Shown: positions 19,580 through 32,790 of the stretch, piece by piece
Position numbering within the stretch: the stretch's first letter is position 1
How the letters are laid out: every line of letters begins with the position of its first letter
IMG/VR virus record: IMGVR_UViG_3300036791_000069
Location: 1-52,124 of that record
DNA: 52,124 nt
Source: a virus
Strand: one strand, 5' to 3'
Translations under genes and position numbers: made by a program
The notes under the pieces: generated by a model
Told to the model about the DNA's origin: nothing
Databases searched by the model: none
What the model saw: the letters and a program-made list of their open reading frames with translations, nothing else

Positions 19580-19682
19580 AGCATTGACCACCAATTGGAG
19601 CGGTGCAAACCGGACATACAACGTCCGATGGTTTGTGTTCAGAAGGGGATGTAGTCTCGATCTTCGTAGCTGTCGCAACCAT
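19404..19682 (-). CDS. Small zinc-finger protein overlapping the clamp-like gene
   Basis: A 92-aa protein from ATG 19682 with GGAGG at 19692-19696, nine bases upstream. The core CPVCTAPIGGQCYV ... HVARIEAA has the CxxC-x7-C-x(n)-H-xx-R layout of a phage/actinobacterial zinc-binding peptide family. The tail is acidic and Lys-rich. It overlaps the clamp-like gene by 176 bases in another frame on the same strand, which is long for phage genes. The strong ribosome binding site and the metal motif argue that this frame is used; the first 47 codons of the clamp-like gene are then the less constrained partner. Confidence 0.65.
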   Translation of the reverse strand: MVATATKIETTSPSEHKPSDVVCPVCTAPIGGQCYVRTAKGNRYINWFHVARIEAAFSLGEPAAKDKESEENSEGTQTGTRIKQVTKRSSVY

Positions 19683-19932
19683 TGGCAATAACCTCCGGGG
19701 GTGGCATTGCGTTATAGAGACTGCAAGTGTTGTTCCAATGCTTGCAGGTAATGCAAGTGCAGAAATAATCGCTACGCTTGCCTAGCGTGTTAAGCAGTTG
19801 AGACGCGAACATATAGAAGTGTTGAGGAACGTTAATTACAACCATTCCGTTCACCGGGTTGGTTGCAATCAGGCGCGGCGACAGCTTCATCGTGTTGCGT
19901 TGTTGTGATTCGACTGGTTGATTAAGTTTCAT
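19639..19932 (-). CDS. Conserved cysteine-rich small protein
   Basis: A 97-aa protein. The C-terminal third has FCTCITCKHW, then CSLYNAMPPPEVIANGCDSY and EDRDYIPF. The pattern CxxC-x(n)-C-x-L-[FY]-x-A-x-PPxxVIxxGC-xx-(Y/W) is widespread in proteobacterial phages and islands as a small protein of unknown function, probably metal-binding. The N-terminus has IATNPVNGMVVINVPQHFYM. It overlaps the next zinc-finger gene by 44 bases. Confidence 0.7.
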   Translation of the reverse strand: MKLNQPVESQQRNTMKLSPRLIATNPVNGMVVINVPQHFYMFASQLLNTLGKRSDYFCTCITCKHWNNTCSLYNAMPPPEVIANGCDSYEDRDYIPF

Positions 19933-20089
19933 TGGTTGCTCTTTTCAACCGGATAGCTGTAAAGAGTGTAATGTTAACTAACGTTGGTTGTCCCTTGAGG
20001 TTGCTGTACCAGCAACGGAAACAAGGTGTGGTTGGTAATCGGCAACGAGAGAGTAATACACCAATGCAACTAAGAGTCTCAGTTTTCAT
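19922..20089 (-). CDS. Possible small protein, 55 aa
   Basis: An open frame from ATG 20089 to TAA 19922-19924. It overlaps the start of the cysteine-rich gene by 11 bases, which would allow coupling. The product has a single CxxC (PCFRCWY) and a basic end (RLKRATNE). The ribosome binding site is weak (AGAAAG). No family is recognised. It fills what would otherwise be a 171-base gap in a tightly packed operon, which is the main argument for it. Confidence 0.3.
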   Translation of the reverse strand: MKTETLSCIGVLLSRCRLPTTPCFRCWYSNLKGQPTLVNITLFTAIRLKRATNET

Positions 20090-20103
20090 AAGTTCTTTCT
20101 AAT

Positions 20104-20415
20104 TTACCACCAGTGTGTAATAGTACGCTGTTGCATCATTTCATCGATAAGCCTTTTACGTTCTTTTTCTCTATCTTCGTTTGATGTGGTGTCAACGCGT
20201 ATTGTCCTGAAGGTTGGACTACTCATCTTAAGTTCAACGTCTTCGTGGCGTTGTTCAGGTATGCAAGGTAGCTCTCTGTATTTCTTAATACGACTTATTG
20301 TCCATGTTGACAAATTAAGTTTTGCGCTTATTTGCTTGTTACTTAATCCTTCAGCACGACAAATCCTAAGGTTTTGTATTCGCCAATTTTTCACTTCATC
20401 AGTTAATTTATTCAA
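20104..20415 (-). CDS. Helix-turn-helix DNA-binding protein
   Basis: A 103-aa protein. The best start is TTG 20415, with GGAGG eight bases before it, overlapping the nuclease stop (TTGA); a GTG at 20430 is an alternative. Residues about 15-45 are a helix-turn-helix of the homeodomain/recombinase type (RICRAEGLSNKQISAKLNLS, then TWTISRIKKYRE). The C-terminus is basic and helical (REKERKRLIDEMMQQR). It could regulate the replication operon or bind the nearby AAAATGTTC repeats (20936-20982). That link is inference. Confidence 0.65.
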   Translation of the reverse strand: MNKLTDEVKNWRIQNLRICRAEGLSNKQISAKLNLSTWTISRIKKYRELPCIPEQRHEDVELKMSSPTFRTIRVDTTSNEDREKERKRLIDEMMQQRTITHWW

Positions 20416-20867
20416 GCTGCTTTCCTCCACTGCACACGATTACCGGCAACTCTCCAATAGAATTCCCACATCGGACACCAACGTGACAAGCCATCGATAA
20501 CACCACGGTGACATTCACAACGATAAATCCAATAACCGATGCTTGGATTTCCGCCACATACACCAACAGCAGTACATGGCAATATTTCAGTGTGATCGTT
20601 CATTAAATCGTGTACGCGTTCTCCAACGAAATCATGCACGTTGATAGTTGGTTTCACTTCAACAAGCAAAGACAACGAAAAACCACCATGCAAATTGGGC
20701 AGATATACGCGAAAGTCAGGAATCCAACCATTGCACGAATCAAGTGGTTCGTATTCCCAACCCCAATTCAGAAGATCGAAGAACGCCGCATAACGTGCTT
20801 CCAAGCGTGACCGAAAGTTAACAGCGGCGTAGGTAGTTGGCATCGCACTGATGTTGTAGACGATCAT
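20412..20867 (-). CDS. PD-(D/E)XK endonuclease (TnsA/Hjc-like)
   Basis: A 151-aa protein from ATG 20867 with GGAGG (20879-20883) upstream; the frame is open further up, but earlier starts lack a site. Motifs: NFRSRLEARYAAFFDLL with Glu23, WIPDFRVYLP with Asp51, LLVEVKP with Glu70 and Lys72. The order RSRLEARxAxFFD, PDF, EVK is that of small phage nucleases related to TnsA and Holliday-junction resolvases. The C-terminal half has four or five Cys/His that may bind a metal (VCGG, YRCECH). A role in resolving recombination intermediates before packaging is likely. Confidence 0.78.
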   Translation of the reverse strand: MIVYNISAMPTTYAAVNFRSRLEARYAAFFDLLNWGWEYEPLDSCNGWIPDFRVYLPNLHGGFSLSLLVEVKPTINVHDFVGERVHDLMNDHTEILPCTAVGVCGGNPSIGYWIYRCECHRGVIDGLSRWCPMWEFYWRVAGNRVQWRKAA

Positions 20868-20935
20868 AAAGTGTGTTTCCTCCATCTGAGAAGAAATAGA
20901 ACCACACCTAAAATCGGCACGCAAGTGACATTATC

Positions 20936-20982
20936 GAACATTTTGATTTTTAGTGAAAATGTTCAAAATGTTCAAAATGTTT
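20936..20982. repeat. Iteron-like repeats AAAATGTTC
   Basis: Three tandem 9-mers (20956-20964, 20965-20973, 20974-20982; the last ends in T instead of C) with one inverted copy GAACATTTT at 20936-20944. They fill the short gap between the nuclease gene and the upstream small gene. They could be an operator for the downstream nuclease/HTH genes or iterons of an origin. Confidence 0.75.
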
Positions 20983-21205
20983 AATCTGCGTGTTTTACTG
21001 CTCCAAACTCCCGCATTTCTAAACAAGTTTCCAATGCATCGTGCAGCTTTAATGCCGGTGCAGTGTGGATGTTCTTGAGAATCCAATACGCGATGACTTC
21101 AACGCTTGTCATATCTTGCTCGACTAGCGTGAATGTGCGTTGGTTACGCGCCTTTGCTCTGGCGTGGACTTGGGAATCGTTGTCGTTCTCACTCAGTTGG
21201 AACAT
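20981..21205 (-). CDS. Conserved small phage protein, unknown function
   Basis: A 74-aa protein from ATG 21205, with a GGAG site seven bases upstream; it starts inside the end of the preceding gene. An upstream start (21238) lacks support. The text RTFTLVEQDMTSVEVIAYWI followed by LKNIHTAPALKLHDALETCLEMR is a pattern I know from many tailed-phage genomes as a small helical protein without known function. It sits in the replication operon. Confidence 0.7.
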   Translation of the reverse strand: MFQLSENDNDSQVHARAKARNQRTFTLVEQDMTSVEVIAYWILKNIHTAPALKLHDALETCLEMREFGAVKHAD

Positions 21206-21704
21206 GTTCAGACTCCGTTGGATGGGTGTCCTTTTCATCGGATTGTTTGTTGATTACATTTGCAACTTCTCTAAAAACAGCGTGTAACCCTTTGAATTGC
21301 GCGAGATGCTGATATTGTGCATACTTCCGCTGAAAGTATTTTAGTTCTTTCAACGCATCGGCTAACAATTGGTCTCTGAAAACTGGTCGTGCTATAACAT
21401 TCGCAAGGGAACGATATCCACCACCGGTCTCTTCTCTGTCAGGAGTTAGAGAACAAAACACACGTACTAACTCGTCTCGATTGCTGCCGTTGTTTGGTTC
21501 AACGTATTCGACAACTGCACGAATTAATTGTCGTGCTTCCCATAAGCGGCACTTTCGCGCTGCTTCGGTGTCATCCCAAGTAAAACGATCATGTAAGGGT
21601 GAATCCGGAGGACGCGCAGCATCTACAACATCTTCAGCGCGAAGAATGCCGTGTTTAACTTCAAGGTTGCGCAGTTCCGTTATGACATATTGGTTGTTTA
21701 TCAT
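21189..21704 (-). CDS. Conserved phage protein of the replication operon, unknown function
   Basis: A 171-aa protein. The segment HGILRAEDVVDAARPPDSPL and its continuation HDRFTWDDTEAARKCRLWEA, with QARxLIR-like ARQLIRAVVEYV, is a conserved phage family seen next to SSB/Sak-type recombination genes. The second half is helical (LLADALKELKYFQRKYAQY). No enzyme motif is visible. The ATG at 21704 overlaps the end of the RAMP-like gene by four bases, so they are probably co-translated. Confidence 0.72.
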   Translation of the reverse strand: MINNQYVITELRNLEVKHGILRAEDVVDAARPPDSPLHDRFTWDDTEAARKCRLWEARQLIRAVVEYVEPNNGSNRDELVRVFCSLTPDREETGGGYRSLANVIARPVFRDQLLADALKELKYFQRKYAQYQHLAQFKGLHAVFREVANVINKQSDEKDTHPTESEHVPTE

Positions 21705-22408
21705 TTTGTTTCTCCATCATGGTACAGTTCGTGAACATCGAATAACCCCCAACCCATCCCAGTTGATTTTACTGAACCGGGCCGTCCTGCTAGAATGCCA
21801 ACCTGTTTGCCAACTCGCGCAATCAAATTAACAATATCCTCTAGCGAGAACTTGTCATTATCAAATGTCACGCGAAGATCGCATTCCCATTCATGCCAAA
21901 TTGGACGGCATCGAATGTCAATAACGTTATTAGCGTTCTTAACATAATTACGAAGAGGTTCGGGAATACCTTTCGTAATTCGTACAAGTGGACTACCGTC
22001 GTCTTTGTCGTACCCATCAGCTTCTACAAATAATACTAGTTTAGCTAACACCATTGTAAATCCGCCCAAGCGACACGCTGCTATTGCACTACCGCGAAAA
22101 GCAGTGCAAGGAATACCACACCATCCGTCTCTGCTAACATGCTTTGCACTTTCGTAAAGTTCGTTGAAATCCTTTGGCTGCCGATTGTTTTTGTTTTTAC
22201 TTCTGCCGCCTTCAGACTGAGACGCCTCTAAATCATCCTGTGTTTTTTGAGATAGTTTGTTCATAACCAACGGAGACGTACCGGCAATGTGCATTCTTAC
22301 GGTGCGAAACGCTGGAGGAGTGACTTTAATTTCCTCTCCATACTTTGACTTTTTGCCGCCATTGTGTGTTGTAAGCGGCACATCGGTTGTTAATGCGTAA
22401 TCACTCAT
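21701..22408 (-). CDS. Conserved phage protein with RAMP/Cas7-like features
   Basis: A 235-aa protein from ATG 22408 (MSDYALTTDV) with GGGAG upstream; an earlier ATG at 22444 lacks a site. I recognise the family as a conserved hypothetical of phage recombination modules. Three blocks recall RAMP (Cas7/Cas6-type) proteins: an N-terminal strand ending TSPLVMNKLS, a mid block GIPCTAFRGSAIAACRLG like the IPGSSLKGALR of Csm3/Cmr4, and a C-terminal glycine-rich loop GRPGSVKSTGMGWGLF. These suggest a ferredoxin-like RNA- or ssDNA-binding fold. This is a hypothesis from motifs only. The gene lies directly downstream of the pentamer array, which forms most of its 5' leader. Confidence 0.55.
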   Translation of the reverse strand: MSDYALTTDVPLTTHNGGKKSKYGEEIKVTPPAFRTVRMHIAGTSPLVMNKLSQKTQDDLEASQSEGGRSKNKNNRQPKDFNELYESAKHVSRDGWCGIPCTAFRGSAIAACRLGGFTMVLAKLVLFVEADGYDKDDGSPLVRITKGIPEPLRNYVKNANNVIDIRCRPIWHEWECDLRVTFDNDKFSLEDIVNLIARVGKQVGILAGRPGSVKSTGMGWGLFDVHELYHDGETK

Positions 22409-22460
22409 TTGACAACTCTCCCTTGTTTGAAGATTTACTCGCACCTGAACTTTTGAAACA

Positions 22461-22860
22461 CCTGACCGAACTCCACCTCACCGGACCATGCCGTACCTAA
22501 CGACACCTAACTCCAAATTCATTCAATACCTATAGATAAAGTAAAAGTCCTGACCTCACCCAACCTGACCGCACCGGACCAGACAGAACCGTACCGGACT
22601 CCAACTCTCTATTACATCTTTTTAATCAAACCAGACTCCACCTGCTATTGTTAATTCCATACCTTACTCAACACAACCTGAACACACCGCACCATAACGC
22701 AACTTAATATGTTACGACGTTATAAATCCGCACCGCACCGCACCCAACTTCACCCTACGACACCTCACCGCACTCCACCGTACCGGACCGTAAACTTGAT
22801 CATTGCCAGACTCGGCCTTACCACACCCTACTGCACCAGACCAAACCGAACCTTACGAAA
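22461..22860. repeat. Array of degenerate pentamers (CCNNA)n in five tracts
   Basis: Noncoding. The + strand carries CCNNA units in strict 5-base register: 22461-22515 (11 units), 22549-22603 (11), 22657-22706 (10), 22728-22792 (13) and 22806-22860 (11), plus a three-unit piece at 22631-22645. Of 56 units, 54 end in A and 53 begin with C. AT-rich spacers of 13-53 bases separate the tracts. The array begins exactly at the helicase stop codon and ends about 50 bases before the RAMP-like gene, so operon RNA carries (UNNGG)n. A 5-base period excludes ordinary coding. It may be a target of a ring- or filament-forming nucleic-acid binder, a run of two-tier G-quadruplexes, or origin repeats. Confidence 0.9.
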
Positions 22861-24450
22861 TTAAAATTCGCATTTAACAACTTTTGGATAGCGTTTGTTT
22901 ACGTCAACCCAAATCTGTCTTGGTACGGCCAACTTAGAACACCAATTTAGTGCTTCGTTGACTGTTGGTGGTGCATTGTCTGAACCCATTCTATGCCGCC
23001 ACCATGCTGTTGCCATTCCACTAGCTCTACCGGGATGCTCCAAGCAAACGATTTCGTCAAACGATCTAATCCCACAAACATAATTGACTTTCAATATATC
23101 GAAACCGTTGCTGGCGAATTTGTTGTACAACACTCGATCCACTCGGAATTGTTGGACCAGTGGAACATCAGTTCGTACCAATTCGTCTGTCCCCGCTGAA
23201 GCATTAATGTGAATCTGCCGGGGAAAAGTGAATCCGCATACAAAGCAAACGGTTGCACTGGCGTGATTGTAAGCGCCACATTGATCACAAATCCTGATGG
23301 GTGCGACACCAGCAGGACCGTTCTTTCTTCGTCTTGGAATAACTGGATCATTGATCGGTCCTAACCGTGGTGTGTTACCGGCAAAGTCTAAGCAAAGGCA
23401 ATCTTGCTTCTGCGTTTCTAACGATGGTCTCGTTCCACGTCCCAACATCTGTACCCACAAGCCGGTGCTTATTGTCGGACGCATCATCACAATCAAGTCG
23501 ATTGGAGGATGATCAAAACCAGTAGTGAGAATATTATTAGTAACAGCACAACGATACTTGCCTGTACGAAACTCAGCGATTCTTGTGTCTCGCTCATTGG
23601 GGTCCAACTTTGAATGAATCGTTTTCGATGGGATGCCAAAGTTATTTAGCATCTGTGCAACGTGTTCCGCGTGATTAATTCCGCTGGCAAATGTCAACCA
23701 ACAGTTGCGGTCTGATCCAAACTCCATAGCCTCTTGGCAAGCGTTGTACGTGACTCCGTGGTGATCGACAGCTTGTTCTAATTCACCTTTGTTGTAGTCT
23801 CCATTCTGAATTGAGACTTTTGATAGATCGAACGTGGTGTTGGTGCGTTTGGGAATCAACATGCACATATAGCCTTCATCGATCAGCTTGTTGAACTGCC
23901 GCATGTTGGTATAGTCACAAACAATATCCGTGAACAATCCAGATTCAGTTAACAATCCGCTGCCGGTCCGGTACGGTGTAGCAGTGAAGCCAATCACTTT
24001 CAAGAGTGGATTCAATGCTTTCAGGCGTGTTACAACGTCGCCATACATCGAATCATCCCTGCCACTCATTAGGTGCGCTTCATCCACTATCATCAAATCG
24101 AAGCGTCCAAGCACATCCAGTGAATTAACTACTGTCCCTATCCCACCAAATATAATTGGCCAGTTGTGCTCTCTTTTTCTTAAACCAGCGGAGTAAATAC
24201 CGTAAGGTGCGCATGGCCAAATCTCCACTAACTTATTGCTGTTTTGTTTAATCAATTCCTTGACGTGAGTCAACACTAAGATGCGTGTGCCGGGGAAACG
24301 TTCTAACGCATGTTGAACAAACCATCCAATGACAAGACTCTTCCCGGTACCAGTGGGAAGCGCCACCACCGGATTTCCAGTCTTGCCACGCATGAAGTAA
24401 TTCCACAACGATTCTTCTGCGTCAAGCTGATAAGGACGTGGAACTAACAT
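22861..24450 (-). CDS. DEAH-box (SF2) helicase with C-terminal zinc ribbon
   Basis: A 529-aa protein. Motif I LPTGTGKS (31-38), motif II DEAH (123-126), motif III GFTATPYR (about 154-161), motif VI LGRGTRPS (336-343). A zinc ribbon CDQCGAYN ... CFVCGF (Cys388, 391, 402, 405) follows, then a 120-aa C-terminal domain with WRHRMGSDNAPPTVNEALNW, the segment seen in phage replicative helicases of the ResIII/UvsW type. Such proteins unwind branched DNA in replication and recombination-dependent repair. The start overlaps the upstream zinc-finger gene by 24-29 bases. The array described at 22461-22860 abuts its stop codon. Confidence 0.9.
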   Translation of the reverse strand: MLVPRPYQLDAEESLWNYFMRGKTGNPVVALPTGTGKSLVIGWFVQHALERFPGTRILVLTHVKELIKQNSNKLVEIWPCAPYGIYSAGLRKREHNWPIIFGGIGTVVNSLDVLGRFDLMIVDEAHLMSGRDDSMYGDVVTRLKALNPLLKVIGFTATPYRTGSGLLTESGLFTDIVCDYTNMRQFNKLIDEGYMCMLIPKRTNTTFDLSKVSIQNGDYNKGELEQAVDHHGVTYNACQEAMEFGSDRNCWLTFASGINHAEHVAQMLNNFGIPSKTIHSKLDPNERDTRIAEFRTGKYRCAVTNNILTTGFDHPPIDLIVMMRPTISTGLWVQMLGRGTRPSLETQKQDCLCLDFAGNTPRLGPINDPVIPRRRKNGPAGVAPIRICDQCGAYNHASATVCFVCGFTFPRQIHINASAGTDELVRTDVPLVQQFRVDRVLYNKFASNGFDILKVNYVCGIRSFDEIVCLEHPGRASGMATAWWRHRMGSDNAPPTVNEALNWCSKLAVPRQIWVDVNKRYPKVVKCEF

Positions 24451-32580: not shown

Positions 32581-32790
32581 TTAGTTGTTGTTGTTGTTGT
32601 TGTTATTGTTGTTGTTGTTGATTGCATCCCATATGCGCGAATGATAATGATGATAAAAACGCAACCATCCATGTGCTACGGGTTTACCTGTTTGGTTGTA
32701 AATCCAACCGCCCGATTTACCTGTATAACCGTGATTACGTCCGTACCATTTTGCTGCATTGATACGTATTTCAGTTATTCCGATATGCAT
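32581..32790 (-). CDS. Small protein with polyasparagine tail
   Basis: A 69-aa protein, TGAGGAAA site before ATG 32790. The body (INAAKWYGRNHGYTGKSGGW, IYNQTGKPVAHGW, RFYHHYHSRIWDAI) is a recognisable small phage family of unknown function. It ends in 12 or 13 consecutive Asn encoded by an (AAC/AAT)n tract just before the stop (32584-32620). The trinucleotide tract could expand or contract by slippage without frameshift, altering tail length. Confidence 0.6.
   Translation of the reverse strand: MHIGITEIRINAAKWYGRNHGYTGKSGGWIYNQTGKPVAHGWLRFYHHYHSRIWDAINNNNNNNNNNNN

Follow-up and report, generated by a model that had tools for sequence, protein, structure and literature searches.

The closest described system is VIPR (Viral Interference Programmable Repeat), reported in a 2026 preprint (April/June; PMC13142463) and found mainly in viral genomes or proviruses. 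A VIPR locus consists of a gene for a small RAMP protein named Vipr, usually one accessory gene named vap, and vrRNAs composed of 9-16 YNNGG repeats, in which GGY is conserved and NN is hypervariable (PMC13142463). Vipr displays a RAMP fold, made of an RRM core, a glycine-rich loop, and a thumb (PMC13142463). In the systems of Escherichia phage SUSP1, the founding phage, and of P. fulva, vrRNAs are produced and form complexes with Vipr, and in SUSP1 the NN pairs read double-stranded DNA as NNxNNxNN, with one base skipped per repeat, DNA binding by VIPR silencing transcription (PMC13142463). Satellites and prophages make up most of the natural targets in the two clades (PMC13142463). SUSP1-clade vrRNAs share an invariant structured 3' tail, which is detailed for the characterized systems, and seven VIPR types with variable array architectures are distinguished (PMC13142463).

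The window analyzed here, a 52,124-nucleotide stretch from an IMG/VR virus record that encodes a phage DNA polymerase, a helicase, and Sak4, contains at 22461-22860 an array that very probably corresponds to five guide RNAs of a phage VIPR, a new member belonging to a lineage distinct from that of SUSP1. The array consists of five minus-strand tracts of TNNGG pentamers, which read CCNNA on the plus strand and TNNGG in the operon RNA. In transcript order, these vrRNA-like tracts are guide 1 (22806-22860, 11 YNNGG units), which starts at the stop codon of the helicase gene, guide 2 (22728-22792, 13 YNNGG units), guide 3 (22657-22706, 10 units), which is the least regular of the tracts, guide 4 (22549-22603, 11 units), and guide 5 (22461-22515, 11 units). 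The spacers between them are AT-rich, and their 3' tails display neither a common sequence nor a hairpin. Between guides 3 and 4, on the same strand, lies a stretch of four units (GCAGG TGGAG TCTGG TTTGA, 22626-22645) that starts with GCAGGY, the junction of the overlapping guides seen in relatives. Judging from its sequence, it is possibly a remnant guide or a remnant of a joined form of the array.

As counted by script over the 56 units, position 1 is T in 54, position 4 is G in 43, and position 5 is G in 53. Position 1 is a pyrimidine (T or C) in every unit, and all 16 possible middle dinucleotides are present. Under a strict TNNGG rule, 39 units are perfect and 17 deviate, chiefly at the first G. 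At a lag of 5, the fraction of identical bases is 0.457; 5000 shuffles that preserve dinucleotides gave 0.286 ± 0.022 (z 7.8), and none reached the observed value. Harmonics are present at lags 10-30. The pattern GGTNNGGTNNGGTNNGG, allowing at most one mismatch, has 31 matches in the whole window, 27 of which are inside the array, for a shuffle expectation of 0.46 per window. An earlier sequence-only reading of this DNA had reported the same five tracts and exactly the same unit counts, and had proposed that the array is noncoding, that its units read UNNGG on the RNA strand of the operon, and that selection acts on the 5-base register while leaving the middle pair free. Our results agree on each of these points, and the shuffles dispose of the possibility raised in that reading that a sequence of this composition would be as periodic by chance.

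No ORF fits the array, which argues against a coding explanation, and neither a promoter nor a terminator was found there above chance. RNA folding of the region is not better than that of shuffles (z +1.2), as expected if the guide is bound by protein. A search of the window and 14 array loci against Rfam returned no match, so that no hammerhead ribozyme reaches the gathering score in the spacers of these guides. The sequence-only reading had considered the leader between the helicase gene and the next gene (vipr) to be exceptional for its length. This gap is indeed 452 bases if translation starts at ATG 22408 (416 bases if it starts at GTG 22444), but the same operon has a second long gap of 425 bases (19679-20103), which has room for two small ORFs (97 and 55 aa) and contains no pentamer array.

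The gene following the array (21701-22408, minus strand, PHROG 4652) encodes a RAMP/Cas7-like protein of 235 aa from ATG 22408, or of 247 aa from the in-frame GTG 22444, which we name Vipr. Its AlphaFold model, based on an alignment of 28 sequences, has a pLDDT of 85.8 and a pTM of 0.81. When the model was compared with the PDB using Foldseek, all the leading matches were Csm3/Cas7-type backbone subunits of types III-A and VII (best E 6.5e-6), and the protein is thus predicted to have a Csm3/Cas7-like fold. The motif G..xG....RP...G is kept in all 28 aligned members. Single-sequence similarity to the SUSP1 Vipr is low (26% identity over a 43-residue match), whereas the window protein is 47% identical to the Vipr of Cy-LDV1. 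Profiles nevertheless connect the two lineages. The same Vipr profile recognizes the window protein with an E-value of 1.7e-38 and the SUSP1 Vipr with 5.3e-34, and a profile-to-profile comparison of the two lineages gives a probability of 97% (E 4.8e-11).

Downstream of vipr, a candidate vap gene (21189-21704, minus strand, PHROG 15946) encodes a protein of 171 aa with no relationship to the vap1 product of SUSP1 (0.2% probability in hhalign). This family also occurs in Cy-LDV1, Quico, ODay, and UmaThurman, with E-values from 2e-20 to 2e-9 against the window protein, and it is conserved beside the module in 12 of 12 IMG/VR relatives. From this linkage we infer that the protein acts in VIPR. 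It has no Pfam match above cut-off, and its confident model (86.9) has no significant match among solved folds, the weak matches having E-values >1.

A scan of 2.9 million viral contigs for six perfect units matched at least 120 loci. Many of the loci listed contain noncoding multi-tract blocks with ~10-20 units per tract and free middle bases, and the spacers are alike inside one phage and unlike between phages. When the ORFs near the arrays were clustered, the dominant family was RAMP-like (32 loci among the matches listed), followed by the family of the 21189-21704 gene (six loci among the matches listed). The Vipr profile detected a member at 32 of 43 array loci and at 3 of 77 other pattern matches, again among the matches listed, and at none of 30 control loci that had been fetched for an unrelated reason. 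Because this profile was partly built from the same array loci, the reverse test is cleaner: all 12 loci fetched with the window Vipr alone have adjoining arrays and a homologue of vap. Of the 11 array loci in which no Vipr was found, several are short contigs. L015, L016, L023, L051, L075, L085, and L116, some of which are short contigs, have arrays and no Vipr detected in the stretch examined; in the others of this set, the protein may be divergent or distant. The array and the Cas7-like gene hence each lead to the other across many unrelated phages. The sequence-only reading had listed the RAMP-like neighbor among the possible binders of the array, a proposal that our results support, binding itself being predicted.

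Array, vipr, and second gene were also identified in the records of Cyanophage Cy-LDV1 (L129), Mycobacterium phage Quico (L130), Gordonia phages ODay (L131) and UmaThurman (L132), and LESphi2 (L133), in which Vipr is annotated as "hypothetical protein". Several of these are cultured phages. The second gene of LESphi2 resembles SUSP1 vap1. Because phages of mycobacteria, Gordonia, and Pseudomonas that carry an array and vipr can be cultivated, they offer convenient laboratory systems in which to study the code and the accessory protein. Two pairs of near-identical arrays (L134/L135 and L137/L138) differ at three positions in all, each a C/T exchange at the Y position, which fits a requirement at this position for a pyrimidine of either kind. 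Three loci (L027:3124-3738, L029:3465-4055, and L071:1842-3306) contain tracts of 50-73 units, mostly mixed C/T, which are perhaps many overlapping guides. In L126:1047-1635, a recurring hairpin followed by T (TTTCTCTGGCGAGAAATTTTT) separates the guides and is terminator-like at the end of each.

An informative comparison is with L001, a close syntenic relative in which helicase, Sak4, and SSB are 76, 71, and 70% identical, respectively, to their window counterparts. Its gene order is primase, DUF7173, Sak4, SSB, small protein, helicase, and the homologue of the 170-aa window protein, with a sliding-clamp-like gene later. In the window, the minus-strand genes for the superfamily II helicase (22861-24450) and for the 170-aa protein (20412-20924, PHROG 21138) are separated by the array, vipr, vap, and a gene of 85 aa. 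As the L001 homologue of the 170-aa protein gene directly follows the helicase gene, the gained cassette is bounded to ~20925-22860. Neither Vipr nor an array is present in the whole 51-kb record of L001. The sequence-only reading had held that absence of the array from a close relative keeping both flanking genes would count against it. Such a relative exists, but it lacks vipr and vap as well, which is explained by a cassette, and the joint absence of the array and the protein genes is what a mobile module predicts. The array and the two protein genes were apparently gained or lost together, gain in the window lineage being the simpler reading and loss in L001 a possible one. The VIPR module of the window is seen here as a cassette flanked by two genes of the replication core.

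Set against the published description (PMC13142463), the locus has tracts of 10-13 YNNGG units, where vrRNAs have 9-16; it has an adjoining RAMP gene, as assessed by AlphaFold/Foldseek and profiles; it has one accessory gene, conserved in the 12 relatives; and it is located in a virus. The statement in the sequence-only reading that no phage element like this had been described is superseded by the vrRNAs of that preprint. As a control, the same script run on SUSP1 found four vrRNAs, of which one precedes and three follow a candidate vipr-vap pair, in agreement with the published vrRNA layout (PMC13142463). Like the type II VIPR of SUSP1, the window locus is phage-borne and combines several YNNGG tracts of ~10-16 units with a gene for a small RAMP-fold protein and a single accessory gene. 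Unlike in SUSP1, all five guides are upstream of vipr and the common 3' tail of the SUSP1 guides is missing, Vipr is divergent, and the accessory protein does not belong with the vap1 of type II. Because vipr and the array match while the accessory protein is unrelated, we assign the window locus to VIPR but not to a SUSP1-like type II. This provides independent confirmation, from sequence only, of a system described so far in a single 2026 preprint (PMC13142463), and adds a VIPR lineage whose accessory protein is unrelated to that of the characterized system.

The lineage is defined by a Vipr related to that of Cy-LDV1, an accessory protein of PHROG 15946, and T-type guides that are AT-spaced and have no tail, with overlapping C-type guides in relatives. 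The Cy-LDV1, Quico, ODay, and UmaThurman loci identified here share the related Vipr and the accessory family. In Cy-LDV1 and in the Gordonia, mycobacterial, and IMG/VR relatives, the guides are joined or overlapping, one ending with CAGGY and the next starting with GCAGG in a shifted register, and the first position is often C (CNNGG), whereas the window guides are separate and AT-spaced, with T at this position. In the four named phages, the junctions read GCAGGC and C predominates at the first position. It is conceivable, though we consider it unlikely, that the lineage is a VIPR type or subtype in which guides are made and used unlike in SUSP1, e.g. through processing by the accessory protein or with a different skip.

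By analogy with the characterized systems (PMC13142463), the operon RNA of the window phage would supply five vrRNA guides built of YNNGG repeats. Vipr subunits would line up along each guide with a 5-nucleotide pitch, gripping the fixed GGY, and the NN pairs would jointly base-pair with double-stranded DNA reading NNxNNxNN. DNA bound by such a complex, probably that of a competitor such as another phage, a prophage, or a satellite, would be silenced. The predicted fold, and the repeated backbone subunits that would assemble on a guide RNA, are shared with Cas7/Csm3 of Class 1 CRISPR, but the window has neither a CRISPR array nor adjoining cas genes, the guide is noncontiguous, and the pitch is 5 nucleotides rather than 6. 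CRISPR-Cas itself was set aside, as no cas family was found in the ten neighboring proteins scanned and there is no direct-repeat array; a direct-repeat/spacer structure is absent from the window array, whose units have only GGY in common.

Possible targets were sought with one skipped base per unit. Five scans of viral contigs with 8-unit stretches of all five guides gave 1-9 partial matches each, none spanning a full guide, and when 84,980 species genomes were scanned twice with 10-unit stretches, for two guides, there was no match; these exact-match scans are a weak test, since the collections may not hold the rivals of this phage. In L001 and in the phage's own genome, matches are about as frequent as in shuffles. 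The best partial match, 19 of 20 positions for guide 3 in L173 and L175 (98.6% identical contigs), was judged to be due to chance because the skip base is out of codon frame. With skips of 0-3, no skip stands out for 235 guides in 1.5 Mb of collected loci, a set too small for targets to be expected. The missing full-length target weighs against the VIPR reading, as do the missing SUSP1-type tail, the 17 units that deviate from TNNGG, and the lack of a promoter or terminator above chance.

An alternative reading of the same locus is that the array is a decaying VIPR guide set or a plain leader, which Vipr binds for autoregulation of the operon rather than for targeting foreign DNA. The position of the array in the leader immediately upstream of vipr would suit such a role, as would the proportion of perfect units (39 of 56), the missing common tail, and target scans yielding no full-length match. 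Decay is difficult to reconcile with intact vipr and vap genes whose products are both modeled confidently, with the full set of 16 middle dinucleotides, and with the clear multi-guide arrays of relatives, which are similarly imperfect. We therefore consider this reading improbable. Much less credible still is a TRAP-like arrangement, in which an 11-subunit ring would wrap one tract of ~11 triplets with two-base spacing and control transcription or translation. TRAP recognizes RNA triplets separated by two-base spacers, and its 5-nucleotide RNA period and number of units are similar to those of the window tracts. Its fold and gene context are different, however; the genome has no TRAP family match (PF02081), the tracts of relatives range from 8 to >20 units, and the partner gene is Cas7-like. 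What survives of the parallel drawn in the sequence-only reading is its general form, since a protein that reads the RNA through repeated subunits is most likely, and not TRAP itself.

Two further proposals of that reading fare no better. GGYNN repeats, with their GG at five-base intervals, could on sequence alone form two-tier G-quadruplexes, either as RNA or as DNA, but conservation is stronger at the T of position 1 (54 of 56) than at the first G (43 of 56), and the C/T swap in relatives would be irrelevant to a quadruplex. As the linkage to a partner gene would also be left unexplained, we see hardly any chance that the spacing reflects quadruplex formation. Least probable of all is an origin of replication, or some other array bound at the level of DNA among replication genes. 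In its favor, the array adjoins the helicase gene in a replication operon; against it, L001 has the same replication operon with no array, and arrays elsewhere have very different neighbors, such as repressor, cro, or excisionase genes. Rho-site, CsrA, and Hfq binding were set aside, as none accounts for the linkage to a Cas7-like gene. Against all of these, five VIPR guides remain the preferred reading. Elsewhere in the window, a (GTT) run at 32581-32620 encodes 12 C-terminal asparagines in a 69-aa ORF.
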